From Henriciella pelagia (GTDB lineage Bacteria; Pseudomonadota; Alphaproteobacteria; Caulobacterales; Hyphomonadaceae): a stretch of 64,000 nucleotides of DNA. A program made the translations under genes and the position numbers. The notes below the pieces were generated by a model. It had not been told where the DNA came from. It saw only the letters and a list, made by a program, of their open reading frames with translations, and did not search any database. Within the stretch, counting starts at the first letter, position 1, and every line of letters starts with the position of its first letter. This document shows positions 4,790 to 23,573 of this stretch, piece after piece. Where the stretch lies: NCBI RefSeq assembly GCF_002088945.1, contig NZ_NCSU01000008.1:124001-188000 (forward strand), written 5' to 3'.

Positions 4790-5947
4790 TCAGGGCGATA
4801 GCTCCGCGGCGATACGGTCTGCGAGCAGTCTCCCTTCGGCGGTCAGGGCGACGTTGGTGCCTGTTTGCCTGATCAGACCGTTTGTTTTCAGGGTTGCGAG
4901 TGTTTCCGGATCGGTGCGCGCGTCGATGAGGGCCTCAATGCGGGACAGGTCGAAACCCTCGGCAGGGCGCAGGCCGAGTGCGAGCAGCTCGCGGGCCGTG
5001 TCGAGGCTGGACAGAGGCTCAGGTGACAGGCCTGTATCGACCGAGGCGATGTATTCGGCCGGCTTCAGAGCGGCGTGCGTGGCAACGCGTTGTCCGTCGA
5101 CGGTCAGCCGCCCATGGGCGCCGGGGCCAAGGCCGATCCAGTCGCCGCCGCGCCAATAGGTGAGATTGTGCTGTGACTGGGTTCCGGATGAGCGGGCATG
5201 GTTCGAGACCTCATAGGCGGGCAGGCCGTGCGCCTCCGCGACCTCTTGCGTCAGCTCATAAAGGTCTGCCTGGTCATCGTCTTCCATCGGGATGAGCTCT
5301 CCGCGAGCGGCGCGTTTACCGAAGGCGGTGCGTTCCTCGATGGTCAGTTCATAGAGCGAGAGGTGCGGCGCACCGAGAGAGAGGGCATCGGTGAGTTCAG
5401 CCTTCCAGCTCTCGGCGGACTGGCCAGGGCGGGCATAGATGAGGTCAAGCGTGACATTGTCGAATGTGGTCAGCGCCGCGTCTGCGGCAAGGCGGGCATT
5501 GGCGGCATCATGGTCGCGTCCAAGGAAGGCAAGGGCCGCATCGTCCAGCGACTGCAGGCCGACCGAGAGGCGGTTCACGCCGGCAGCGGACCAGGCTTCG
5601 AGGTCGGCAGCAAGGACATCATTCGGATTGGCCTCCAGCGTGATTTCCACGTCAGGCGCAAGTCCGAAGCTGCGCTCGGCCAGTTCGATGAGAAGTGCAA
5701 TGTCACCAGCGCCGAGCAGGGATGGGGTCCCGCCGCCAAAATAGACAGAGCCAAGCTGCGGGTGATCGGGCAGGGCTTCAGCATGCCGGGCGAGGTCGCG
5801 CGATATGGCTTCGACAAGCGAGCGACTGTCCCGCCCCTTTGCGGTGTAGACGTTGAAGTCGCAATAGGGGCAGATCTTCGAACAATAGGGCCAGTGGACG
5901 TAGAGCCCGAAGCCGTAATCCGGTCCGAAGGGCAGGGGCGTGCTCAT
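4790..5947 (-). CDS. hemW: Radical SAM family heme chaperone HemW
   Basis: A 385-residue radical SAM protein. The [4Fe-4S]/SAM motif is CxxxCxxC at Cys22, Cys26 and Cys29, followed by Asp-Phe rather than the extra Cys of true HemN, which marks the HemW branch. GGGTPSLL and the [10 protein letters not shown] segment are also family hallmarks, with the C-terminal HemN-type domain ([21 protein letters not shown]). HemW binds haem and delivers it to membrane respiratory proteins; it is not a coproporphyrinogen oxidase. The start overlaps the rdgB stop by ATGA, so it is translationally coupled as second gene of an rdgB-hemW operon. Confidence 0.93.
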
Positions 5948-6546
5948 GGCAGCAGGGCGGCTTTGAGCTTGCGGAAGGCGTCGGCGCGGTGGCTCATCGC
6001 ATGCTTCTTCGCCGGGTCCATCTCGCCGAAGGTCTCTGTCTCGCCCTTGACAACGAAAACCGGGTCATAGCCAAAACCCCGGTCGCCGCGCGGTGGCCAG
6101 ACGAGCGTGCCATCCACTGTCCCTTCGAAGACCGCCTCTTGGCCATCGGGCCAGACGACAGCGAGGGTGGAGACGAACCGGGCTGAGCGGTCGGTGGCCT
6201 GCATGTCCTGCAGCAGGTCTTCCACCTTCTTCATGGCGACGTAGAAATCACGCGGTTCGCCAGCCCAGATGGCAGTGTGGACGCCGGGCATCCCACCAAG
6301 CGCCGTAACTTCCAGGCCGCTATCGTCGGAGAGGGCTGGGGCGCCCGTCGCCTTGCAGGCCGCCCGGGCCTTGATGAGGGCATTGCCCGCAAAGGTGAGT
6401 TCCGTTTCGTCCGGCTCCGGAAGATCAAGATCAATGGCGGAGACAACCTCCATGCCGACAGGCTCGAACAAGTCCTTGAGCTCCCTCACTTTTCCCTTGT
6501 TATGGGTTGCGGCAACCAGTCGGCCTTTTCCAAGTGTGCGAGTCAT
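5944..6546 (-). CDS. rdgB: RdgB/HAM1 non-canonical purine NTP pyrophosphatase
   Basis: The 200-residue product hydrolyses dITP, dXTP and ITP to monophosphates and pyrophosphate, cleaning the nucleotide pool. The HAM1 signatures are present: [11 protein letters not shown] at the N-terminus, LSDDSGLEV in the middle, [11 protein letters not shown] and [11 protein letters not shown] near the end. Length is typical. In many alphaproteobacteria the order is rph-rdgB-hemW; here rph lies about 3.2 kb upstream on the same strand with unrelated genes in between (see findings). The start is the ATG at 6546. Confidence 0.93.
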
Positions 6547-7499: not shown

Positions 7500-8006
7500 A
7501 TGACAATCGGAAAATTTGCACTGGCGCTGCTTGGCGCTGCCATGATCGCGTCCGCCTGCACGGGCAGCGACCGCGAAGCCGGCGAGTTCAAGAATGACTG
7601 GCTGGGCAATGAGATCAAGATCGACCGGCTGGCCGATCCGAAGGTGCAGGGCATCACCTGCCACATTGCCTATTTCGACCGGGGCGTCTGGGACCGGATT
7701 GGAAAGGGCAACTGGTTCGAGGACCCGTCCAACTCTTCCATCTCATGCCTGAAAACCGGGCCGGTTGTGATCGGGAAAATCGACCTTGACCGTTCGGGTG
7801 AAGAGGTCTGGGACCGGGGCCGCTCGCTGATCTTCAAGCAGCTGGCGGTGCGCCGCATCTATGACCCGAACAGCGACACGATGATGTATGTTTCCTTCTC
7901 AAGAAAGCCGGTGGACGGCTCAGCCAAGATGAGCCTGTCGACAGTCTCGCTCTATGATGGCGATGTGACCTGGGCCGGGCGGGAGCGGCCCGACCCGCGC
8001 GACTAG
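7500..8006 (+). CDS. creA: CreA family lipoprotein-like protein
   Basis: The 168-residue product carries an N-terminal hydrophobic leader ending in an ASAC that can serve as a lipobox (Cys19). The mature part matches CreA: DPKVQGITCHIA, the SSISCLKTGPVVIG block and the D-rich LDRSGEEVW segment, each also seen in E. coli CreA. Four Cys occur in the ORF, two in these CreA blocks and a late one absent, so one disulphide is plausible. CreA has no assigned biochemical role. It lies 45 bases after the HTH gene and may be transcribed with it, although it is functionally unrelated. Confidence 0.8.
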   Translation: MTIGKFALALLGAAMIASACTGSDREAGEFKNDWLGNEIKIDRLADPKVQGITCHIAYFDRGVWDRIGKGNWFEDPSNSSISCLKTGPVVIGKIDLDRSGEEVWDRGRSLIFKQLAVRRIYDPNSDTMMYVSFSRKPVDGSAKMSLSTVSLYDGDVTWAGRERPDPRD

Positions 8007-8075
8007 ACATGCTGGAATAAGTGTCATGCTGGCGGGCGTGTTGTGAGCGGCTGCTGAAATCGCCAACTTTCGCAG

Positions 8076-8912
8076 ATGACACAGCAACCCAGCCTCTTCA
8101 TCTCGCACGGTGCGCCGACGCTTGTGCTCGATGCGTCTCCGGCGCGTGATTTTCTCGAACGACTGGGCACGCAATTAGAGCGGCCGAAGGCCATCCTGAT
8201 CATTTCCGCCCATTTCGATGCGCGCAATCCGACGCTGACATCAGGTGCGGCGCCCCGGACCATTCATGATTTTGGCGGCTTCGGCCCGGAGATGCATGCG
8301 ATGCAGTATCCAGCGCCGGGCGATCCGGAGCTGGCCGAGCGGGCGGCCGCGATGCTGCGGGCGAGCGGCCTTGATGCGGTGACGGACGGTGAGCGCGGGC
8401 TCGATCATGGCGCCTGGGTGCCGCTGAAGCTTGCCTATCCGGAGGCCGATATTCCGGTCGTGCAGCTCTCGATCAGCATGAACCAGTCGCCGGAATGGCA
8501 TTACCGGCTGGGGCAGGCGATTGCGCCGCTGCGCGATGAGGGCGTCCTGATCATCGGCTCAGGCGGGACGACGCACAATCTGCGAGCCTTCTTCACCGGC
8601 AGCTACAAGATCGATTCAGACGCGCCTGAATGGGTGACGCTGTTTTCCGAATGGGTCGCAGAAAAGGTCGCCGCGAACGATCGCGGCGCGCTAATTGAGG
8701 CTGTCGAGCAGGGTCCGATGGCGCGGCAGAACCATCCAAGCATGGACCACATCCTGCCCTTCTTTGTTGCGCTCGGCGCTGGCGGGGAGGGGGCTGGCGA
8801 ACGTCTGCACCAGAGCACGACATATGGCGTGCTGGCGATGGACGCTTACCGGTTTGGCGGTGAGGTTGCGGCTCAACTTAGTTCGCTCGATTATGGTCTT
8901 CCGAAAGACTGA
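8076..8912 (+). CDS. ygiD: DODA-type class III extradiol dioxygenase (YgiD-like)
   Basis: A 278-residue LigB-fold protein of the 4,5-DOPA dioxygenase family. Expected metal-binding and active-site histidines are visible in FISHGAP near the start, ISAHFDA, LDHGAWVPL and GSGGTTHNL. Family members cleave catechol-type rings with Fe(II) or Zn(II). The natural substrate of the bacterial enzymes is mostly unknown. No clear Shine-Dalgarno precedes ATG 8076. The last 35 bases overlap the 3' end of a convergent AT-rich gene. Confidence 0.88.
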   Translation: MTQQPSLFISHGAPTLVLDASPARDFLERLGTQLERPKAILIISAHFDARNPTLTSGAAPRTIHDFGGFGPEMHAMQYPAPGDPELAERAAAMLRASGLDAVTDGERGLDHGAWVPLKLAYPEADIPVVQLSISMNQSPEWHYRLGQAIAPLRDEGVLIIGSGGTTHNLRAFFTGSYKIDSDAPEWVTLFSEWVAEKVAANDRGALIEAVEQGPMARQNHPSMDHILPFFVALGAGGEGAGERLHQSTTYGVLAMDAYRFGGEVAAQLSSLDYGLPKD

Positions 8913-9705
8913 ACCCGTACGAGTTGGGCTTGTTTTTGAGCGGCAAATATCGGTCCATAACATAGTTGAATGTCAATAATCTCCGGGTGCCAAAGCAGTC
9001 TCTATACTGGACCACGCCTCTAAAGATCAATTCCGCCGTACCATTGAGAATCGCGATCTTTTGTTGATGGTGGAGTTGAAAATGAAAGCTTGGAAACACG
9101 CTCTCGCCGCTCGGCAGATAGAGTTTTTGCGAGCGAGCTATCGTTTTCTCTGACGGGATGTGTTCTTCGTCCACCAGCCTTACGAATGCGCGTCTGGTGA
9201 ATTGGACATCATGGGCTGGTGTCCTCCCTGTGTTGCGAAGTTCGAATTTCAGAATGCATTCGCTGGTCCTATCAGACAAAAAATTTAGGACTTCGATCTG
9301 TCGTACGAAAACGTATGCTCTGGACTGTCGCTCGCCGATTTTGCGGTTTGTGTTCTCCGATTCCCATGCGGCATCAGTGGTATCTCTCGCTTCGACAAGC
9401 ATTTGGTATGTGGCACGCAAAGTCCAGCCAATGAGAAGTACTCCCAAAGCCGACACCGCCAACATCCATGTTGCGGTTGAGGCCATGGACTGTTGCGCTT
9501 CGAGATTTTGCTGAGCTCGCTGTGTATCAGACAGGCTTGAGGCTGCTATGCTGCTAGCGTCTGCCGAATCAGCGGTTGCTGCGGCTAGATAGCCATAGAA
9601 GTACCCGAGACCGCCAAACACAATTGCGGCGACCAACATCCACCAAAGAGTTGGAAAGAACTCATCTGGTCGCTTCGGGCGATTATGTTTTCGTTGTCCC
9701 ACCAT
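8878..9705 (-). CDS. Hypothetical two-helix membrane protein, AT-rich, likely acquired
   Basis: A 275-residue protein with two membrane segments, near residues 20-44 (LWWMLVAAIVFGGLGYFYGYLAA) and 78-100 (WMLAVSALGVLLIGWTL). A helical stretch with ERQSRAYV follows, then a C-terminal domain of about 160 residues rich in beta-strand-like segments (LKFELRNTGRTPAHDV, ending in a VQYRDCFG region). Proteins with this layout are widespread orphans near mobile DNA. The gene is visibly richer in A+T than its neighbours and uses codons such as AAT, TTT and CGA freely. It sits in the gap that separates rph from rdgB. ATG 9705 is preferred over TTG 9711. Confidence 0.7.
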   Translation of the reverse strand: MVGQRKHNRPKRPDEFFPTLWWMLVAAIVFGGLGYFYGYLAAATADSADASSIAASSLSDTQRAQQNLEAQQSMASTATWMLAVSALGVLLIGWTLRATYQMLVEARDTTDAAWESENTNRKIGERQSRAYVFVRQIEVLNFLSDRTSECILKFELRNTGRTPAHDVQFTRRAFVRLVDEEHIPSEKTIARSQKLYLPSGESVFPSFHFQLHHQQKIAILNGTAELIFRGVVQYRDCFGTRRLLTFNYVMDRYLPLKNKPNSYGFSLSEDHNRAN

Positions 9706-9749
9706 TCGCAATCATAGGTAAACTCGATTGGCTAGACGCAGCAATAGGT

Positions 9750-10475
9750 CTAGCCGATTGCCTTCCTCTGCGCTTCGAACAGCTCGGTGCAGCCCTTTTC
9801 CGCGAGTTCCAGCAGGCGCTCGACTTCGGGCCGGGTCATTGGGCGTTCTTCGCCGGTGCCCTGGATTTCGATGAAGCCGCCGTCGGAGCTCATGACGACA
9901 TTCATGTCGCCTTCGCCGCCGGAGTCTTCGGGGTAGTCGAGGTCGAGGACGGGGTGGTCCTTGAAGAGGCCCACCGAAACGGCGGCGGCCTGTTTCTGGA
10001 TGGGGTCTTTCTGGATGATACCTTCTTCGCGAAGATATTTCATGGCGAGGGCCATGGCCACGAAACCGCCCGTGATGGAGGCTGTACGCGTACCGCCATC
10101 GGCCTGGATGACGTCGCAGTCGATGGTGAGCTGGTTTTCGCCGAGGGCAGAGAGATCCACGACAGAGCGGAGCGAGCGGCCGATAAGGCGCTGGATTTCC
10201 TGCGTGCGCCCGGATTGCTTGCCAGCGGCAGCTTCGCGCCGGCCGCGTGTGTGCGTGGCGCGGGGCAGCATGCCGTATTCGCCAGTGACCCAGCCCTTGC
10301 CCTGTCCGCGCAGCCATGGCGGGACATTGTCCTGCCAGCTGGCGGTGCAAAGGACGTGTGTGTGGCCGAACTTGGCGAGGCAGGAGCCTTCGGCATAGCG
10401 GGTCACATTGGTCTCAAGCACGATATCGCGAAGCTGGTCAGCGGCGCGGCCGGACGGACGGATAAGGTCAGTCAT
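9750..10475 (-). CDS. rph: Ribonuclease PH
   Basis: A 241-residue RNase PH, a phosphorolytic 3'-5' exoribonuclease that trims tRNA 3' ends. Typical blocks are present: [16 protein letters not shown] at the N-terminus, [17 protein letters not shown] with the RNA/phosphate-binding region, [30 protein letters not shown] and the DLDYPEDS acidic motif. The start overlaps the stop of the upstream MFS gene by 8 bases (ATGACTGA), indicating coupling. The usual partner rdgB is not adjacent. Confidence 0.95.
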
Positions 10476-14342: not shown

Positions 14343-16256
14343 ATGGGAAAAATCATTGGTATTGACCTCGGCACCACCAATAGCTGCGTGGCTGTCATGG
14401 ATGGCGGCGAAGCCAAGGTTATCGAGAACTCCGAAGGCGCACGCACGACCCCGTCCGTTGTCGCTTTCACTGAAGGCGGCGAACGCCTCATCGGTATGCC
14501 GGCGCGCCGCCAGGCCGTCACGAACCCCGACTTTACCTTTTACGCGATCAAGCGCCTGATCGGCCGTCAGTTCGACGATCCGACCGCGCAGAAGGACAAG
14601 GAAATCTCCCCCTTCGAGATCGTGAAGGGCGCGAATGGCGATGCCTGGGTCAAGGGCCGCGACAAGGAATATGCGCCGCAGGAAATCTCCGCTTTCATCC
14701 TGACCAAGATGAAAGAGACCGCCGAAGCCTATCTCGGTGAGAAGGTGGAGCAGGCGGTGATTACCGTTCCGGCCTACTTCAACGACGCCCAGCGTCAGGC
14801 AACCAAGGATGCCGGCAAGATTGCGGGCCTCGAAGTGCTGCGCATCATCAACGAGCCGACGGCTGCGGCCTTGGCCTATGGTCTCGACAAGGACACCAAC
14901 AAGACGATCGCCGTCTATGACCTTGGCGGTGGTACGTTCGACGTCTCCATTCTCGAGATTGGCGACGGTGTGTTTGAAGTTCTCTCGACCAATGGTGACA
15001 CCTTCCTCGGTGGTGAAGACTTCGACCTTCGTATCGTCGATTTTCTCGTCAGCGAGTTCAAGAAGGACCAGGGCATCGACCTGTCCAAGGACAAGCTCGC
15101 CCTGCAGCGCCTGAAGGAAGAAGCCGAGAAGGCGAAGAAGGAGCTTTCGTCCGCGAGCCAGTATGAAGTGAACCTGCCATTCATTACCGCTGACCAGACC
15201 GGCCCGAAGCACCTCAATATCAAGCTCAGCCGTGCCAAGTTCGAGAGCCTCGTCGAGGACCTCGTGAAGCGCACCATCGAGCCTTGCAAGAAGGCGCTTG
15301 CAGATGCTGGCAAGTCGACCTCGGAGATTGACGAGGTTGTTCTCGTGGGTGGCATGACCCGCATGCCTGCTGTGCAGTCTGCCGTGAAGGATTTCTTCGG
15401 CAAGGAGCCGCACAAGGGCGTGAACCCGGATGAAGTTGTTGCCATTGGCGCAGCCATTCAGGGCGGCGTGCTGCAAGGCGATGTGAAAGATGTTGTCCTG
15501 CTCGACGTGACGCCACTGTCGCTCGGTATCGAGACGCTGGGCGGCGTGTTTACCCGCCTTATCGACCGCAACACCACGATCCCGACCAAGAAGTCGCAGA
15601 CCTTCTCGACCGCTGAAGACAATCAGCCGGCTGTGACGATCCGCGTCTTCCAGGGTGAGCGCGAAATGGCGGCCGACAACAAGATCCTCGGCCAGTTCAA
15701 TCTCGAAGGCATCCCGGCTGCGCCGCGCGGTGTCCCGCAGATCGAAGTGACGTTCGACATCGACGCCAACGGCATCGTGTCTGTCAGCGCCAAGGACAAG
15801 GCGACCAATAAAGAGCAGAAGATCACCATTCAGGCGAATGGCGGCCTCTCTGAAGACGAGATCAAGAACATGATGAAGGACGCTGAGGCGAATGCCGACG
15901 CTGACAAGCAGCGCCGCGAACTCGTCGAAGCCAAGAATGCCGCCGAAGCGCTCGCACACCAGACCGAAAAGCAGCTCGCCGAGCATGGCGACAAGGTCGA
16001 TGCTGACGTGAAGGCCGAGATCGAAAAGGCCGCCGAAGAGCTCAAGAAGGCTGCGGAAGGTGATAATCTCGCCGACATCCAGGCCAAGCATCAGGCGCTC
16101 ATGACGGCTGCGATGAAGCTCGGTGAAGCGATCTATGCGAGCCAGCAGGCAGATACAGCCGAAGCGGATGCGAAAGCCGACGCGGCTGCAGACGGCGACG
16201 ACGATGTGGTCGACGCAGACTTCGAGGAAGTGGACGACGACCGCAAGTCGGCCTAG
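14343..16256 (+). CDS. dnaK: Molecular chaperone DnaK (Hsp70)
   Basis: A 637-residue Hsp70. The nucleotide-binding domain opens with [16 protein letters not shown] and includes [36 protein letters not shown] and [10 protein letters not shown]. The linker [17 protein letters not shown] and the substrate-binding domain follow, ending in an acidic tail ([12 protein letters not shown]). It acts with GrpE and DnaJ in protein folding and, in this group, modulates RpoH. Expression is probably heat-induced from the promoter at 14191. Unusually, dnaJ does not follow; a terminator and mscS do. Confidence 0.97.
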
Positions 16257-16283
16257 TGCTTCGTAGAGTGATGTAAAATCTGG

Positions 16284-16310
16284 CGCCCCGCAGCTTCTGC
16301 GGGGCGTTTT
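16284..16310 (+). terminator. Intrinsic terminator of dnaK
   Basis: Perfect 10-bp stem CGCCCCGCAG / CTGCGGGGCG (16284-16293 and 16297-16306) with a 3-base loop and TTTT. It ends dnaK 28 bases after the stop and isolates it from mscS. Confidence 0.9.
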
Positions 16311-16330
16311 ACTATAGGGGTCTGGTCGCG

Positions 16331-17698
16331 ATGAAATTTGGGGCACAAGAGGGCGAGGGCCTGAACACCGACAATCTCGGCATTGTGTCGACGCTCAACG
16401 ATTACTGGGCGCAGGTCGAGGATGTGTTCAGCACGGGATTTCTGGGCCAGCCAATTGGCCGTGGCCTCCTCGCCATTGGTATCCTGCTTGTCGCCTACAT
16501 GATGCGCGGTGTCGTTGCGCACCTGATCGCTGGCACGATCGGCAAGCTCGCCGGCAAGACCGAAACCACATTCGATGACAATCTGGTCAAGGCGCTGAAG
16601 CCACCCCTGACGCTCCTGCCGATTTCGGCGGGCATCTTCTTTGCTGCACAGGCCATGGGCGCGACGGGCGAAGTGGACGAGTTCTTCGTTGCGGTGACCA
16701 AGTCCATCGTCATCGGCGCGATCTTCTGGGCCCTGTTCCGCCTGATCACACCGCTCCTGATGCTGATCAGGGGGATGCGGCACCTGTTCGGTGAAACCTT
16801 CCTTGGGTGGATCAGCCGTATCCTGAAGGCAATCGTGGTCTTTGTCGGAGGCGCGGCAATCCTGGATGTCTGGGGTGTGCCGGTATTGCCGTTCCTGGCG
16901 TCGCTGTCTCTCCTGTCGGTGGCTGTCGCGCTCGGTGCACAGGACCTGTTCAAGAATTTGATTGGTGGCATGACGATCATTGGTGAGCGCCGCCTGTCGC
17001 GGGGTGACTGGATCTTTGTCGACGGGGTGGTCGAAGGCACGGTCGAGGATGTGGGGTTCCGCTCGACGACGGTACGCCGGTTTGACAAGTCACCGGTCTA
17101 TGTCCCGAACGCCAAGCTCGCGGACAATCCGCTGACCAATTTCTCGCGCATGACGCATCGCCGGATCTATTGGAAGATCGGCCTCGAATATCGAACGACA
17201 GATGACCAGCTGGCGGCCATTCGCGGCGCCATAGAAGACTATATCACCAGTAGCGATGATTTCGCGCCAGCCGCGGAAGTGTCGACCTTCGTGCATATTG
17301 ACGAGTTCTCCGACAGCTCGGTGAATATCATGGTCTATTGCTTTACCAGGACGACGGTCTGGGGGGAGTGGCTCGCGATCAAGGAGCAGCTCGCCTTCCA
17401 CATCAAGAAGATTGTCGAAAACGAGGGGGCAAGCTTCGCCTTTCCGAGCCGGTCGCTCTACTTCGAGAAATTGCCCGATGGCGCCGCGCCTGAAGCCTTT
17501 GAGCCGCCGTCGGATGGGGAAGGGGCGCCTGCAGACGATGACAAGGTACCTGAGACGCCCGAAAGCGAGAGCGTCAAGGCGTCGAAGCGCAATCCGGGCG
17601 GCCAGCGCGGGGCCCCACGCCCCGATGGCCGGGGCGTTGCTGGCGAAGGCGGCGACAAGGGGGAAGCTGAAAGCGGCGGCGGAAAGGCTGAGGGCTAA
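16331..17698 (+). CDS. MscS-family mechanosensitive ion channel
   Basis: A 455-residue inner-membrane channel of the small-conductance family. About four N-terminal membrane helices are followed by the pore-lining TM3 (VPVLPFLASLSLLSVAVALGAQDLFKNLIGG, with Gly/Ala packing) and the beta domain (LSRGDWIFVDGVVEGTVEDVGFRSTTVRRFD, VYVPNAKLADNPLTNFSRM). The last ~80 residues are a low-complexity Pro/Glu/Gly/Lys-rich cytoplasmic tail that is not part of the fold. It opens on hypo-osmotic stress to release solutes. ATG 16331 lies in the window between the dnaK terminator and the gene, with only a weak Shine-Dalgarno. Confidence 0.92.
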   Translation: MKFGAQEGEGLNTDNLGIVSTLNDYWAQVEDVFSTGFLGQPIGRGLLAIGILLVAYMMRGVVAHLIAGTIGKLAGKTETTFDDNLVKALKPPLTLLPISAGIFFAAQAMGATGEVDEFFVAVTKSIVIGAIFWALFRLITPLLMLIRGMRHLFGETFLGWISRILKAIVVFVGGAAILDVWGVPVLPFLASLSLLSVAVALGAQDLFKNLIGGMTIIGERRLSRGDWIFVDGVVEGTVEDVGFRSTTVRRFDKSPVYVPNAKLADNPLTNFSRMTHRRIYWKIGLEYRTTDDQLAAIRGAIEDYITSSDDFAPAAEVSTFVHIDEFSDSSVNIMVYCFTRTTVWGEWLAIKEQLAFHIKKIVENEGASFAFPSRSLYFEKLPDGAAPEAFEPPSDGEGAPADDDKVPETPESESVKASKRNPGGQRGAPRPDGRGVAGEGGDKGEAESGGGKAEG

Positions 17699-17782: not shown

Positions 17783-18508
17783 TCAGGCAGCTGCCAGCGC
17801 CTCGTCCTTCGATTTCTTCGGGTCACGCAGGACATAGCCGCGGCCCCAGACGGTTTCGATATAATGTTCGCCGTCAGGATTGTCGGCAGTCGCCGTTGCC
17901 TTTGCGAGCTTCTTGCGCAGCTTGCAGATGAAGACGTCGATGATCTTCAGCTCAGGCTCGTCCATGCCACCATACAGGTGGTTGAGGAACATTTCCTTGG
18001 TCAGCGTCGTGCCTTTCCGAAGGGAAAGGAGCTCGAACATCTGGTATTCCTTGCCGGTCAGGTGGACGCGGTCACCGTCGACTTCGACAGTCTTCGCATC
18101 GAGATTGACCAGGATCTCGCCGGTACGGATGACGCTTTCGGCGTGACCTTTGGAGCGGCGAACGATTGCCGTGATCCGTGCAATCAGCTCGTCCTTGTTA
18201 AACGGTTTGGTCAGGTAATCGTCAGCGCCATAACCGAGCGTTTTCACTTTCGCTTCAATGTCTGGATTGCCTGAAAGAATCAGAACAGGTGTATTCACGC
18301 GGCTCATACGGAGCTGCTTGAGCACTTCGTAGCCGGAGATATCAGGGAGAGACAGGTCGAGGATAATAATATCGTACTCGTACACCTTGCCGAGGTCGAC
18401 GCCCTCTTCACCGAGGTCGGTGGTGTAAATATTGAACCCTGCAGCCTTCAGCATTAGCTCGATGCTGCGGGCGACGGAGTTGTCGTCTTCAATTAGAAGA
18501 ACCCTCAT
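17783..18508 (-). CDS. ctrA: Cell-cycle response regulator CtrA
   Basis: A 241-residue OmpR-type regulator and the master cell-cycle regulator of this group. Receiver residues Glu7/Asp8 (acidic pocket), phosphoacceptor Asp51 ([15 protein letters not shown]) and Lys in [12 protein letters not shown] are intact. The DNA-binding domain is nearly canonical ([32 protein letters not shown], then [14 protein letters not shown] and [13 protein letters not shown]). The C-terminus ends in Ala-Ala, the signal for ClpXP proteolysis in Caulobacter CtrA. It is usually phosphorylated by the CckA-ChpT relay, represses replication initiation and activates flagellar and pilus genes. The upstream region has a CtrA-box-like site and two GANTC sites, as expected for autoregulation and methylation control. 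Confidence 0.96.
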
Positions 18509-18631: not shown

Positions 18632-19483
18632 TTAACAGTGCAGATTTTGCCCGCCACTATTGCCGATAAGGGTCTGGGCGATGGCGATGGCGTCCTGAAT
18701 GGGTTGTGCTGAAGGATCTGTGGAAATCAGCGTCCGCTGTGCGCGCATGGCCTCGCGGACCTTCTCATCCCTCATGACAATCCCGGCAAGTGCCGGGCGG
18801 AAACCAAGGAACTGCTTGGACGCGCGGGCAATCGCTTCATAGGTTTGCTGACCCATGGCTCGGGTCGTGGCCTGGTTGATAATAATACTCTGTTCGACAT
18901 CCGGTGCATAACCGCGAAGCACCTTGATGAAGGCGTAGCCGTCCGTCATCGAGGCGGGGTCGTCGGTGATAACCATCAGCGCCCGGTCAGCTGACCGGGC
19001 GAGGCGCATGCAGTTGGCTTCAATGCCGGCGCCAAGGTCGAGGACGATCTTGTCGTACTGGAGGGAGAGCGCGGATATGCCAGCCGTCAGGCGGGAGACT
19101 TCGTCCGTGCTGAGTTCAGCTAGCGTGCCTGAACCGGAGCGACCCGGCAGGACGTCAAAGCCGCCCTGGCCAGCGCCGCCATCCACGTTGATGACGGCGT
19201 CTTCAAGCTCGATCCAGCCGGCGACAACCGCTGCGAGGTCGGTTTCGGGCGCGATGCCGAGCTGGACATCTACGTTTGCGAGACCGAGGTCTCCGTCAAC
19301 GAGCAGGGTGCGCTGTCCGGCCTGGGCGAGGGCGCTCGCCAGGGTGATCGACATAAAGGTCTTGCCGACACCGCCCTTTCCGGACGCGACGGCGATAATG
19401 GAGCCTGGCTGAACACGCGACGGCGTGCGTTTGCCTGGCGTATCCGATGGCCTGTCCATCGATTTTGGAAGCATGAAGCTCAT
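18632..19483 (-). CDS. flhG: FlhG/FleN (YlxH) MinD-like ATPase
   Basis: A 283-residue SIMIBI-class ATPase. The deviant Walker A SGKGGVGKT spans residues 34-42 and both Lys are present; LLVDGDLGLANVDVQLG (switch I/II) and IVLDLGAGIEANC (Walker B) follow. FlhG controls flagellar number and, with FlhF, polar placement. The N-terminal ~27 residues are Pro/Arg/Lys-rich, and I see no DQAxxLR motif, the segment that in Bacillus FlhG stimulates FlhF GTPase. The start lies one base after the flhF stop region (gap 1), so both are one operon. It is encoded directly upstream of ctrA on the same strand with a 123-base gap holding the ctrA promoter. Confidence 0.85.
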   Translation of the reverse strand: MSFMLPKSMDRPSDTPGKRTPSRVQPGSIIAVASGKGGVGKTFMSITLASALAQAGQRTLLVDGDLGLANVDVQLGIAPETDLAAVVAGWIELEDAVINVDGGAGQGGFDVLPGRSGSGTLAELSTDEVSRLTAGISALSLQYDKIVLDLGAGIEANCMRLARSADRALMVITDDPASMTDGYAFIKVLRGYAPDVEQSIIINQATTRAMGQQTYEAIARASKQFLGFRPALAGIVMRDEKVREAMRAQRTLISTDPSAQPIQDAIAIAQTLIGNSGGQNLHC

Positions 19484-20635: not shown

Positions 20636-20896
20636 TCAGGCGGCGTGTTTCTCGTCCACGATTTCTGAAAGCTTAACGCCAAGCTCTCCATTGGCGACGA
20701 CGAGGCGGCCGCGCGCCATGAGCCGGTCAGAGACATAGATGTCGACTGGCTCATTGGTCTTCTTCTCGAGCGCAACGATTTCGCTCGGGCCGAGATTGAG
20801 AAGCGTCTCGATCGGCATGCGCGCTTCACCCAGCACCACATCCACGCGTACAGGCACGTCCATGAGGCTGGATTCGAGGGCGCGATTGACGGTCAT
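20636..20896 (-). CDS. fliN: Flagellar motor switch protein FliN
   Basis: An 86-residue SpoA-fold protein that should build the lower C-ring. Nearly the whole length is the domain: LMDVPVRVDVVLGEARMPIETLLNLGPSEIVAL and VSDRLMARGRLVVANGELGVKLSEIV match FliN. The long N-terminal extension typical of many FliN proteins is absent. GGAG precedes ATG 20896. It follows the FlbE-like gene with a 90-base gap and is separated from flhF by 143 bases, so a promoter for flhF may lie there. Confidence 0.9.
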   Translation of the reverse strand: MTVNRALESSLMDVPVRVDVVLGEARMPIETLLNLGPSEIVALEKKTNEPVDIYVSDRLMARGRLVVANGELGVKLSEIVDEKHAA

Positions 20897-20986: not shown

Positions 20987-21352
20987 TCAGGATTGGAAAA
21001 GATTGCCCTGGCCGTCAATCATCTCCGATGCGATGCGGCAGACCTGGGTATTCACCTCCGAGCGGTCTGCTTCAGAAAGATCAATTTTCTCAAGGGTTTC
21101 CGCGAGTTGAATGATCTGGGCCAATGCTGCTTTTAGCTGTTCATTCGTATGGCGGATTGCTTCGGTCTGCTGTTCGACCTGTTCGTTACGGATCAGCGCA
21201 GCTGTGCTCTGGCGGGTGTCTTCCAGAAGGGCGGCGAGCTCGGCCACGCTGATGGAAATGCGCGCATCCTGATCTGTGGCCGGGGGCTCTGGCGCAGTAA
21301 AGTCGCTGCGAAAATCGAACGGGGTGACAGTGGCGGGCCTGGTCTTGCTCAT
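20987..21352 (-). CDS. FlbE/FliH-like coiled-coil protein
   Basis: A 121-residue acidic protein with a predicted coiled coil (residues ~40-95: AALLEDTRQSTAALIRNEQVEQQTEAIRHTNEQL...). I do not recognise a domain. Its position between fliG and fliN is that of flbE (the FliH counterpart) in the Caulobacter fliF operon. The start overlaps fliG by ATGA, so it is coupled. It is shorter than the usual FlbE/FliH (about 200 residues) and would lack the C-terminal ATPase-binding segment. Assignment is by gene order only. Confidence 0.55.
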   Translation of the reverse strand: MSKTRPATVTPFDFRSDFTAPEPPATDQDARISISVAELAALLEDTRQSTAALIRNEQVEQQTEAIRHTNEQLKAALAQIIQLAETLEKIDLSEADRSEVNTQVCRIASEMIDGQGNLFQS

Positions 21353-22293
21353 TCGACAAGCTCGTCATCATCATTGGCGGACAGGATGTCACCACGCCGG
21401 GCCAGCGACCGCGCCATGCGTATGATGTCCTGCCGGGCCTCATCGATTTCAGAGCGCCGGACGGGGCCAAGGGAATCGATCTCAGTCACGAGAAGATCGC
21501 CGGCGCGCTTCGTCATGTTGCGCAGAAATACCTCGCGCACGGCGGGGCGGGCCCCCTTGAGGGCGATGCCCAGAACGGCGCGGTCAACCGAGGAAAGGAT
21601 AGTCTGGATGGCCGCCGGTTCGAGGCGGGAAAGATCGTCAAAGGTAAACATCAGGGCGCGGATGCGTTGCCCGCTTCCCGGTTCATTCTTGTCGAGCGCG
21701 GCCAGGAGGCCGTTTTCATCCTGTCCGCCCATCTCGTCGAAGATGCGCGCAACCGTCTCGTGCCCATTGCCGGTCGCTGCGTCGAGGCCGGACGCGACAA
21801 GGTCGCCGACAGCCTGTTCGATGACGCTCAGGGCTTCGGTGCGGATGCGGCCGAGGTGAAGCAGGCGCTGCAGGGCGTCGGTCGCGACCGGCCGGGGAAG
21901 GGCGCGCACGGTGGCGGCGGCTGCGTCCGGGGCGAGGCGTGACAGGATCACGGCGATGACCTGCGGGTTCTCCGTCTCGAAGCCGCGGGCAATCTGGGCC
22001 GGGTCCATCTGGCTGAGGCGCGCCCAGATCGAGCTTTCTGCAGAACCGGGTTCGGGGGTAGGAACGGCTTCATAGCTGCGGACAAAGTCTGCCGTATCGT
22101 CCGAGGGCGATGTTGCGGATGAATGAGGGTGCGGGGTATTCATGGCGACGCTGAGCTGGTCGGCTTCTTCAGGCGAAAGCTCTGCCCAGACGCCGGACGC
22201 GGCAGGGCCGAGGGCCTTCATCAGACGTGCAGCCCGTGCGACGCCGCGGCCGAAGACGGATCTGTGATCCTGGACGAGGGCAGGGACGCTCAT
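21349..22293 (-). CDS. fliG: Flagellar motor switch protein FliG
   Basis: A 314-residue FliG. The middle domain holds the ENPQ counterpart of the EHPQ motif (GFETENPQVIAVILSRLAP). The C-terminal torque domain is well conserved: NMTKRAGDLL, then DSLGPVRRSEIDEARQDIIRMARSL. The ~100-residue N-terminal domain, which binds FliF, is more divergent and contains a short low-complexity insert (HPHSSATSPSDDT). FliG links the MS ring to FliM/FliN and contacts the stator. The start is coupled to the short FliF gene by ATGA and its stop to the FlbE-like gene by ATGA. Confidence 0.9.
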   Translation of the reverse strand: MSVPALVQDHRSVFGRGVARAARLMKALGPAASGVWAELSPEEADQLSVAMNTPHPHSSATSPSDDTADFVRSYEAVPTPEPGSAESSIWARLSQMDPAQIARGFETENPQVIAVILSRLAPDAAAATVRALPRPVATDALQRLLHLGRIRTEALSVIEQAVGDLVASGLDAATGNGHETVARIFDEMGGQDENGLLAALDKNEPGSGQRIRALMFTFDDLSRLEPAAIQTILSSVDRAVLGIALKGARPAVREVFLRNMTKRAGDLLVTEIDSLGPVRRSEIDEARQDIIRMARSLARRGDILSANDDDELVE

Positions 22294-22964
22294 CGGGTGC
22301 CGTCCTCGCTGGAAGTCATCCAGCTTCTGAGGATGCGCGCCGTTTCCTTCGGGTTTTCGCGGGCGATGCGGCGGGCTTCTGCTGCAGCGTCCTGCGCGGG
22401 CGCGTGGTCCGGCAGTGGGACCGCGCGAAGCCGTGGAGTATCATTCGCTGGCGCCTCGATGCGCGGCGCGCCCGTCTCTTCCGTCTGGTTTCGCCCGGAG
22501 ATGAGCAGCATGCCAAGAAGGCCCGCAATGGCGAGCAAGGCGGCAAGTTCGATGAGCTGCTCGGTGGAGAACCCGCCGGCAAGGCCCGAAGCGAAGACGA
22601 TGGGCTGGATCTGGAGGCGATCGGTGCTGGCATCATAGCCGGCGGCGGCCTCCAGGATCATCTCGACCTGGGCGGCTTTCTGCGGCGCGATGGCAAAAGA
22701 CTGTCCCGGGCGGTTCACGAGAATGAGGAAGCTGCGGCTGTCATCGGCGGACTGATGGATGGCGACGCGCACGTCACCGCGTCCAAGCACCGGTTCGAGA
22801 AGGTTGGTCAGTTCAGCCTGGGCGGGGGTCATCTCACCGCGGTCGAGGCGGTGGTCGGTCAGGAAATCATTGGCCCGCCATGCAAGTAGGCACGCGGTGA
22901 TTGCCAACGCAATGAGCGTGGCAAGCCGCGTGCCTCCGGGCATGTTGGACTTAAGTGCTGACAT
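22290..22964 (-). CDS. fliF: Severely shortened FliF-like MS-ring protein
   Basis: The 224-residue product is less than half the usual ~550. A first membrane helix spans ~13-31. A periplasmic part (~32-134) follows; its LLEPVLGRGDVRVAI and AAQVEMILEAAAGYD segments resemble the conserved RBM3 region of FliF, while RBM1 and RBM2 appear to be missing. The second helix is ~136-156. The cytoplasmic tail ends with ARENPKETARILRSWM (202-216), the FliG-binding helix of FliF. So membrane topology and the FliG anchor are kept. The ATG at 22964 sits behind GGGAAGG; the reading frame is intact and no remnant of a longer gene lies upstream. It heads the operon that continues with fliG. Confidence 0.75.
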   Translation of the reverse strand: MSALKSNMPGGTRLATLIALAITACLLAWRANDFLTDHRLDRGEMTPAQAELTNLLEPVLGRGDVRVAIHQSADDSRSFLILVNRPGQSFAIAPQKAAQVEMILEAAAGYDASTDRLQIQPIVFASGLAGGFSTEQLIELAALLAIAGLLGMLLISGRNQTEETGAPRIEAPANDTPRLRAVPLPDHAPAQDAAAEARRIARENPKETARILRSWMTSSEDGTR

Positions 22965-23034: not shown

Positions 23035-23050
23035 TAAACGGCGCTTTAAC
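23035..23050. promoter_or_regulatory. CtrA-box-like site upstream of the fliF operon
   Basis: TAAA-N7-TTAAC (23035-23050) is one base from the CtrA consensus, in the gap between sciP and fliF. A GAATC (GANTC) site lies at 23054-23058. CtrA control of fliF is known in Caulobacter; orientation and use here are inferred. Confidence 0.45.
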
Positions 23051-23092: not shown

Positions 23093-23365
23093 TCAGGCGC
23101 GATATTGCTGAAGTCGCGTTGTCCGCAGGCCCTTGGTGCCGTGCTTGTCGTACAGCTGGGACCATCCATTCAGTTCTTCTTCCGTCAGGGAGTAGCGGTC
23201 GCACGCTTCCTTGCGGGAAAGAAGACCCCCCCGGACAGCCGCGACGACTTCTGCCTTGCGGCGAGTCACCCAGCGACTGATGCCAGGGGGTGGGAGGTCA
23301 TCCCGGGTCATTGGTTGGCCGTCTGGGCCCTTAACGCTCAAAGTTCTCGCATTCTGCTGCGCCAT
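23093..23365 (-). CDS. sciP: CtrA inhibitor SciP (DUF1153)
   Basis: A 90-residue HTH protein. The block ISRWVTRRKAEVVAAVRGG, followed by LLSRKEACDRYSLTEEEL and GLRTTRLQQYR, is nearly identical to SciP (DUF1153). In Caulobacter SciP binds CtrA or its promoters and prevents RNA polymerase recruitment in swarmer cells, blocking flagellar and methylase genes. It sits upstream of fliF on the same strand, as CC_0903 does in Caulobacter. ATG 23365 has GGTGG in front; ATG 23377 is also possible and adds four residues. The 114-base gap to the fliF start region contains the CtrA-box-like site. Confidence 0.93.
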   Translation of the reverse strand: MAQQNARTLSVKGPDGQPMTRDDLPPPGISRWVTRRKAEVVAAVRGGLLSRKEACDRYSLTEEELNGWSQLYDKHGTKGLRTTRLQQYRA

Positions 23366-23573
23366 GAGATCCACCATTATTAGCGGTTGATACCGAAGAC
23401 GCTTCTGCGCCTATGAAGGTGGGTTTACACGAGGCATCTTAAATCAGGTTTCAGCGCAGACTGTGAGTTTTCATGAAAATTGAAAACGTTCTTCGCGAAC
23501 GCGTTAAATCCATGTTTGCAAACCTGTCCCGGCATGGGGCAATTGTGCCGGATCTGTACAGAATCCTACAGAT

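Follow-up and report, generated by a model that had tools for sequence, protein, structure and literature searches.

Among the closest described relatives of the locus reported here is the alphaproteobacterial flagellar motor, with its MS ring, C ring and MotAB stator and its SciP-fliF operon. RBM1 and RBM2 build the inner M ring of the flagellum. In the portions of the two papers available to us, the hole of the inner M ring is described as fitting the export gate (PMC8270960), and RBM3 alone as forming rings in vitro (PMC8786727). Caulobacter mutants that complete the rotor without the remaining structure produce more holdfast via MotAB and the cyclase DgcB, according to the accessible part of PMC7885107. 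Also, a hat-like inner-membrane complex linked to the flagellar T3SS has been described, among others in Hyphomonas neptunium (available part of PMC9380563). Flagellar gene loss has been reported in the Caulobacteraceae, the accessible main text containing no mention of FliF, FliG, MotA or Henriciella (PMC12700997), and the accessible part of another paper names Hyphomonas in its species list only (PMC11870540). Among the best matches in the open-licence PMC literature, we found none that describes a shortened FliF together with a separate rotor and stator.

The window, i.e., the whole stretch of DNA that was analyzed (64,000 nucleotides of Henriciella pelagia, contig NZ_NCSU01000008.1, positions 124,001 to 188,000), carries a much shortened FliF, hereafter mini-FliF, at the head of an operon.

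Results

Gene Content of the Operon

The gene order around mini-fliF is SciP, mini-FliF, FliG, mini-FliH, FliN, FlhF, FlhG and a CtrA-type regulator. The DUF1153 protein upstream is the one we take to be SciP. FliG, FliN and FliH were read in the regions fetched. The features, with positions in the window, are the following.

23093..23377, minus strand: SciP (DUF1153), which stands in front of full-length fliF, too, in all five canonical regions that were read
23035..23049, minus strand: CtrA-like box TTAAAGCGCCGTTTA, 71 nt before the mini-fliF ATG
22290..22964, minus strand: mini-FliF, 224 aa, with a TM helix, one RBM3-type domain, a TM helix and a FliG-binding-type tail, as assigned by profile search, AlphaFold and Foldseek
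21349..22293, minus strand: FliG of the mini motor, 314 aa, with FliG_C (119 bits), FliG_M (50.5 bits) and FliG_N over residues 17-53 only
20987..21352, minus strand: mini-FliH, 121 aa, named from its alignment with canonical FliH, the N-end FDFRSDF and the C-end GQGNLF being alike
20636..20896, minus strand: FliN, 86 aa, FliMN_C 78.5 bits
19485..20498, minus strand: FlhF-like SRP GTPase with GHGRT as its P-loop (Lys to Arg)
18632..19483, minus strand: FlhG/MinD-like ATPase with GKGGVGKT present
17783..18508, minus strand: CtrA-type response regulator, found in the same order in 20/29 loci

The sequence-only reading had described a gene in the place of fliF, cut to about 224 residues and intact, with a ribosome-binding site and ATGA coupling to fliG. 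This description holds: the frame from 22964 to 22290 on the minus strand is open over 224 codons, its ATG lies behind GGAAGG, and its TGA overlaps the ATG of FliG. The search for homologues with the same gene order, which that reading had proposed, was successful, and a mini-FliF of 214-241 aa occupies the same place in all 29 Hyphomonas and Henriciella loci examined (L009-L036 and L058), its C-terminus being frame-broken in L058. Because it recurs at the same place in 29/29 loci, mini-FliF is neither a chance product nor an assembly error. An ordinary fliF that was frameshifted or misassembled, for which no supporting evidence was found, is refuted by these relatives, and the ATG of mini-fliF follows the stop of SciP after only 128 nt; we regard the probability of such an artefact as negligible.

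The mini-motor FliG passes the curated cut-offs for FliG_M and FliG_C and has the torque charges. It remains below the NCBIfam equivalog cut-off (151 of 226.7 bits), and its FliG_N, the FliF-gripping domain, is itself shortened. Mini-FliH and canonical FliH (202-207 aa) are similar at their two ends, and about 85 residues between these ends are missing from mini-FliH, for which no match above any Pfam cut-off was obtained. FlhF is next after the mini operon in 22 of the 29 loci, some of the remaining loci being cut short, and it also follows the operon in the genomes G220, G026, G307 and G308; near the operon of G041 or G325 it was not found. The P-loop of FlhF is altered, with loss of its lysine, in all mini rows read.

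Domain Composition of Mini-FliF

RBM1 and RBM2 had been supposed to be missing, and the HMM check with FliF domains bears this out, as PF01514 (YscJ_FliF) gave no match in mini-FliF at E<=1. When the single sequence was compared with Pfam, the sole FliF signal was PF08345 (YscJ_FliF_C) at E 0.095, below the cut-off, over residues 81-123 and profile positions 104-146 of 147; two unrelated DUF models scored similarly weakly or slightly better (E 0.014 and 0.062). PF08345 was matched at E<=0.1 in 4 of 24 mini-FliF relatives, the best E being 0.0022. Recognition of RBM3 by Pfam in the single mini-FliF sequence thus failed, and profile search and fold did better.

A profile built from 24 mini-FliF members gave hits in 181 of 299 genomes from the order. 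Among the matches listed, mini-FliFs account for about 50 (E<=3e-33), and most of the others fall on the C-terminal portion of frames that are about 500-630 aa long (E 1e-3 to 1e-11); the full-FliF matches span profile positions from about 91 to 228. Since the profile matches the C-terminal part of such long frames, the homology between mini-FliF and full FliF is statistical.

The AlphaFold model (mean pLDDT 78.7, pTM 0.51) shows a helix at 10-37, an alpha-beta-beta-alpha-beta domain at 47-122 (alpha 47-60, beta 65-71, beta 77-84, alpha 94-108, beta 116-122), a helix at 134-156, and cytoplasmic helices at 193-203 and 205-221. In a Foldseek search against the PDB, the weak matches at ranks 1-4 were Salmonella FliF MS-ring or RBM3 entries (E 2.8e-3 to 5.8e-3); unrelated folds, e.g., ribosomal protein S3, started at rank 5 with similar E. 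The suggested succession of helix, RBM3-like part and helix thus finds agreement in the fold between the two TM helices, in the weak Foldseek matches and in the profile homology. In the C-terminal FliG-binding-type region, for which two helices are predicted, P205, R213 and W215 are invariant in 24 rows. Taken together, these data describe mini-FliF as one ring-building domain (RBM3) with a FliG-binding-type tail, RBM1 and RBM2 being gone. Judging from the length of the protein, its RBM3 presumably lacks the long insert of this domain.

Second Flagellar System and Origin of the Mini Operon

The whole genome was searched for a second fliF, as had been proposed. It contains one full-length FliF with PF01514, in a 507-aa frame on contig C14, and two MotA, two MotB and four FliMN_C proteins were counted. 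This FliF belongs to a second flagellar cluster (F2), which holds FliF, FliN, FliP, FlgI, FlgK, MotA, FliL, a divergent FliG (FliG_C 45 bits), a Flagellin_C protein that we read as FlgL, a FliMN_C protein that we read as FliM, and its own MotB_plug protein. The FlgK, FlgI and FlgL-like genes found are thus part of F2, and the F2 genes for FlhA, MotA, MotB and FliF lie within about 30 kb of C14. G154, which belongs to a different family of the order, likewise has an F2-type cluster, and its genome carries a canonical operon as well.

Five canonical regions (L131-L134 and L136) have SciP, FliF (548-604 aa), FliG (340-372 aa), FliN, FlhF and FlhG at the matching place, with the exception of FlhG, which was not found in the L136 stretch. 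These regions come from four genera of the family without mini-FliF (G110, G185, G334 and G229) and from G154. The region of G110 (L131) was read completely: FliG and FliN flank a 207-aa FliH, and a gene that we read as FlbD-like lies with FlhA between FliN and FlhF; in G185 (L132), FlhF and FlhA share one 1043-aa frame. The gap between FliN and FlhF in the window is 137 nt, and the mini operon contains no copy of flhA. A 2.5-kb insertion between FliN and FlhF in L011 was considered as a remnant of flbD and flhA and rejected, as its ORFs, judged by eye, are unlike these genes.

A tree of FliG was computed from 48 rows and rooted for drawing only; L014, L023 and L024 (the same loci as L126, L119 and L120), L016, L026, L036, L058 and L129 were left out. 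All 36 mini rows cluster together (100/100), on the canonical alphaproteobacterial side of the FliG tree. Two F2 rows stand apart (99/97), and the F2 row of the source genome sits on a very long branch. G307, G308, G220 and G026 group together at 90/80, below the starred level, G308 having a long branch. On the evidence of synteny and the FliG tree, the mini operon is the ordinary fliF operon of the lineage, shrunk. The sequence-only reading had proposed that this would be a second, divergent system if a full-length FliF existed elsewhere. A full-length FliF does exist, in F2 on C14, but the mini operon is the ordinary one and F2 the more divergent of the two.

What is gone are the export-facing parts (RBM1 and RBM2, the FliH core and FlhA), and what is kept are the torque-making parts, with a shortened FliG_N. 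Synteny, the FliG tree and the FliH alignment therefore indicate that export-facing parts were lost and that motor-facing parts were kept, apart from the shortened FliG_N.

FliM-Like, MotA and MotB Proteins

Three further candidate parts were located away from the operon.

C13:272368-273399: FliM-like protein, 344 aa, beside a gene that we read as DksA-like
C14:596791-597057, within a 325-aa ORF: MotA2, the second MotA of the genome
C2, in a 265-aa ORF: MotB2, the second MotB of the genome

The C13 protein combines an EIDALL-type peptide, which we take to be a FliM feature, with the middle fold and FliMN_C. The peptide L(S/T)xAEI(E/A)ALLRP occurs in 11/11 rows, 10 of them distinct, the FliM of the source genome being present in the alignment under two names. 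Foldseek with the model (pLDDT 64.6) returned flagellar C-ring or FliG-FliM chains at ranks 1-9, with a best E of 2.7e-12. No Pfam FliM match was obtained at E<=0.01, the NCBIfam fliM score was 34.9 of 219.6 bits, and phmmer against the PDB gave no useful match. In the family, the FliM-like protein was matched in 78/105 genomes, which belong to the mini-FliF genera with the exception of G327 and its weak match.

MotA2 has MotA_N, MotA_ExbB, the torque residues and the prolines, and it aligns with TIGR03818 over 281 of 282 positions at 285.6 of 303.8 bits, just below the cut-off. MotB2 has MotB_plug with the Asp and an OmpA-like peptidoglycan domain (the OmpA domain was present in the three scanned) and falls below the NCBIfam MotB cut-off. 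Flanking genes are common to MotA2 and canonical MotA in 2/4 regions (L149 and L151), and to MotB2 and canonical MotB in 3/3 regions (L189-L191), the canonical genera having only one MotA and one MotB each. The old motor's FliM, MotA and MotB thus persist at unlinked loci, and the machine extends beyond the operon.

Conserved Residues, Selection and Promoter

Residues are given in what we take to be E. coli numbering. The comparisons of residues and of dN/dS cover the fetched regions, with 12 MotA2, 9 MotB2 and 11 FliM rows. In mini-FliG, the Arg281-like position is R, the Asp289-like position E or D, and the Arg297-like position R, each in 30/30 rows. In MotA2, the Glu98-like position is E and the two channel prolines are present in 12/12 rows; the Arg90-like position is R in 6, K in 5 and Q in 1 (basic in 11/12), the canonical rows having K (4/4). 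The Asp of MotB2 is present in 9/9 rows. MotA Arg90 and Glu98 are described as pairing with FliG Asp289 and Arg281 in the available part of PMC7564593.

These residues bear on a static reading of the ring. According to this, mini-FliF, FliG and FliN would form a scaffold that no longer turns and that is placed at the pole by FlhF and FlhG, MotA2 and MotB2 being kept for something else. The frequent position of FlhF after the operon, including in G220, G026, G307 and G308, would suit such a platform, as would the shortened FliG_N and the altered FlhF P-loop. FliG, MotA2 and MotB2 have kept their torque residues, however, and FlhF was not found near the operon in G041 and G325, and we judge a static scaffold quite unlikely.

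Selection was estimated on whole genes by the Nei-Gojobori method. For G041/G170, dN/dS was 0.24 for mini-FliF, 0.13 for FliG, 0.11 for FliH, 0.05 for FliN, 0.15 for FliM, 0.07 for MotA2 and 0.19 for MotB2; for G325/G321, the respective values were 0.14, 0.03, 0.12, 0.07, 0.11, 0.02 and 0.11. The mini motor genes are under purifying selection in these two closer pairs. More distant pairs gave 0.06 to 0.50 or were not computable, dS being near saturation in most of them. In most pairs, no other part evolves as fast as mini-FliF, with values of up to 0.5 where the pair is distant and nearly saturated.

For the CtrA box, we assumed the consensus TTAA-N7-TTAA. With one mismatch allowed and on one strand, a CtrA-like box was present upstream of mini-fliF in 38/38 loci scanned; mononucleotide shuffles gave 0.62 on average and 4 at most. 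The loci scanned were those whose mini-FliF was found by BLAST at 1e-6; L123, L124, L125 and L127 are outside the 38, and L014, L023 and L024, the same loci as L126, L119 and L120, were left out here too.

Distribution in the Family

Mini-FliF was found at E<=1e-15 in 72 of 105 genomes of the family, full FliF in 90 and FlhA in 92. Sixty-three of the 72 mini-FliF genomes have matches to both FliF and FlhA, one (G321) to FlhA only, and eight to neither, namely G220 (completeness 100%), G026 (99%), G041 (99%), G307 (95%), G325 (93%), G300 (88%), G301 (86%) and G331 (80%). Genomes without flagellum matches were probed with FliF, FlhA, MotA and MotB models. Each of the eight has one MotA_N match (E 1e-18 to 1e-25, like the MotA2s) and a FliM, and seven, i.e., all except G331, have one MotB_plug match. 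The mini motor is thus kept where no flagellum seems to be present, and this suggests that the motor alone does an undescribed job.

The coexistence of mini-FliF with FliF and FlhA in 63/72 genomes would agree with the old rotor and stator being extra or alternative parts of F2, e.g., a second stator set or a second switch ring, and dual stators are known in other bacteria (accessible part of PMC5380961). Against such a part-time supplier, F2 owns FliF, FliG, FliN, MotA, FliL, FliM-like and MotB_plug proteins, the mini set is kept in the eight genomes without FliF and FlhA matches, and the FliG proteins of the mini operon and of F2 are far apart in the tree. This reading is, in our opinion, unlikely.

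FliF and FlhA matches are absent from further genomes, too. G308 has a shortened mini-FliF (E 1.2e-5), MotA and FliM, and no MotB match. No mini-FliF match was obtained in four others: G294 has MotA, MotB and FliM, G302 and G299 have no MotA or MotB match and FliM at E 5.5e-29 and 3.8e-6 (weak), respectively, and G305 has two MotA and two MotB. Because of these two stator pairs, F2 is probably present in G305 and incompletely assembled. The absence of MotA and MotB matches together with mini-FliF in G302 and G299 also counts against the static scaffold, though G294 has both. In the 27 genomes of the genera g3, g4, g5, g6 and g56, no mini-FliF was found, the mini-FliF search giving only its weak match to full FliF in six of them.

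One may also see the mini motor as leftovers of a lost flagellum that slowly drift towards loss. The fast evolution of mini-FliF, the missing mini-FliF matches in G294, G302, G299 and G305, and decay or error in G308, L058 and G279, in which FliG is split into two frames, could be read in this way. One stop was flagged inside the mini-FliF match in G307, G150 and G135, the open frames of G307 and G150 having 215 and 213 aa. On the other side stand the presence of mini-FliF in 72/105 genomes, dN/dS well below 1 in both closer pairs, losses that follow function (RBM1 and RBM2, the FliH core, FlhA), and the promoter box in 38/38 loci. A remnant on its way out is therefore very unlikely.

The main doubt about the flagellum-less carriers concerns missing contigs in draft genomes. 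As the F2 genes form one block, a single missing contig can mimic their joint loss; G220, G307 and G026 are MAGs, the relative G321 of G325 has FlhA, and the relative G170 of G041 has F2. As F2 does not adjoin rpoN in all relatives, the rpoN flank does not serve to recognise a true loss of F2. The high completeness of several of these genomes and the grouping of G307, G308, G220 and G026 (90/80) are in favour of a real loss of F2.

Discussion

We propose that mini-FliF anchors in the membrane a rotary motor that is complete but has no flagellum, a reading to which we assign a probability of roughly 0.6. In an ancestor of the marine bacteria Hyphomonas and Henriciella, the second flagellum (F2) would have taken over swimming, and the original flagellum would have lost its export apparatus, so that rod, hook and filament were no longer possible. 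The motor would have been kept, with a membrane ring of mini-FliF consisting of the RBM3 ring-former only, with FliG, FliM and FliN as torque and switch ring, with FliH stripped to its ends, and with a MotA/MotB stator retaining its ion-carrying aspartate and peptidoglycan-binding domain. Since RBM3 forms rings in vitro and the hole of the M ring serves the export gate, a ring of mini-FliF could carry FliG, FliM and FliN as a ring without any axle, MotA2/MotB2 being its possible drive. A miniature ring able to hold FliG and FliN, possibly a different machine, had already been suggested by the sequence-only reading, and at the level of gene content and domains this suggestion is supported.

The adjoining FlhF and FlhG may position the mini motor, and CtrA probably activates it during the cell cycle. 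The ring would be rotated or put under strain by ions flowing through MotAB. As there is nothing to propel, the likeliest output would be a signal, the load on the motor reporting surface contact or membrane energy to development; turning an envelope partner would be another option. We take mechanosensing or energy sensing as likeliest in view of the signalling of the Caulobacter rotor via MotAB and DgcB.

Tentatively, and with less conviction than for the anchor itself, we suggest an ion-driven rotary machine without axle, hook or filament, made of a 224-aa ring protein, FliG/FliM/FliN and MotAB, timed by CtrA and serving as a sensor or envelope motor, as a possible further way of using flagellar parts, the third after flagella and secretion systems. 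If this minimal set turns or senses load, it would define the smallest natural rotor-stator unit and would show that, in the cell, a switch ring can rest on RBM3 alone. It would also separate torque generation from export and offer a simple model for motor-based surface sensing.

The AglRQS gliding motor, ExbBD, TolQR and GldLM are relatives of MotAB that work as ion-driven stators without a flagellum. To our knowledge, none of them has a FliG/FliM/FliN rotor. The hat-like complex is, in the available part of its description (PMC9380563), an inner-membrane structure related to the flagellum, with a periplasmic part other than FliF; we considered it because Hyphomonas is listed there and rejected it, as it occurs in many species outside the mini-FliF clade, including Bacillus subtilis. 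The alphaproteobacterial flagellar motor has the same locus and gene order, the same FliG and FliN, the same FliM fold and the same torque residues, and by their flanking genes MotA2 and MotB2 are orthologues of its stator proteins. The mini motor differs from it in a mini-FliF without RBM1 and RBM2, in a mini-FliH without its core, in an operon without FlhA and the FlbD-like gene, and in that no other FliF or FlhA was found in some carriers. The rotor and stator described in Caulobacter likewise signal through MotAB with the flagellum unfinished. As presented in the accessible part of PMC7885107, they belong to a flagellum whose assembly is disrupted, whereas the mini motor would be permanent and separate.

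FlhF and the Protein Next to MotA2

The FlhF encoded beside the reduced flagellar operon carries a modified nucleotide-binding motif.

Window 20498-19485, minus strand: FlhF adjoining the reduced operon, P-loop GHGRT

The P-loop lysine is replaced by arginine (GHGRT) in this protein and in all 27 FlhF sequences read from carriers of the mini-FliF, which represent 24 distinct loci. The canonical FlhF sequences, from relatives with a full-length FliF operon, have GKT at this place (6 sequences, 2 of them from one gene). The FlhF of the reduced operon may be a GTPase-dead positioning factor.

Another protein was noted beside MotA2, the second MotA of the genome, proposed as the stator part of the mini motor and unlinked to the reduced operon.

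L161 (MotA2 region), 5559-6119, minus strand: own copy of a protein, 174-221 aa long across the mini-FliF carriers, beside MotA2

This protein lies 3′ of MotA2 in 12 of the 12 regions read from mini-FliF carriers (own, L139-L147, L196, L199), and it was not found in the four canonical motA regions (L149-L152). The own copy gave no Pfam match. It is a candidate motor partner, or merely a neighbor.

Irregular Loci and Additional Systems

Three reduced loci were irregular: in Hyphomonas oceanitis (L058) the mini-FliF frame is broken near its end, in G279 (L129) FliG is split over two frames, and in G308 (L127) mini-FliF is shortened and FliG is fast-evolving. These irregularities reflect either decay or sequencing errors. 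In locus L011, an insertion of about 2.5 kb (7622-10177) occupies the interval between mini-FliN and FlhF; of its open reading frames, we assigned one as hydrolase-like and one, a membrane protein, as resembling a LytTR regulator.

The FliG of F2, the separate flagellar cluster with full FliF in the genome of the window (G000, contig C14, L003), is extremely divergent (tree branch 4.11, FliG_C 45 bits).

The sister genus g5 has another second system: in both G229 and G160, one FlhA match scores about 868 bits and a second 746-750 bits, and FliF is likewise matched twice, once within a 374-aa frame. A possible fusion was seen in genus g6.

L132 (G185, genus g6), 14383-17514: FlhA and FlhF apparently in a single 1043-aa open frame, possibly an FlhA-FlhF fusion
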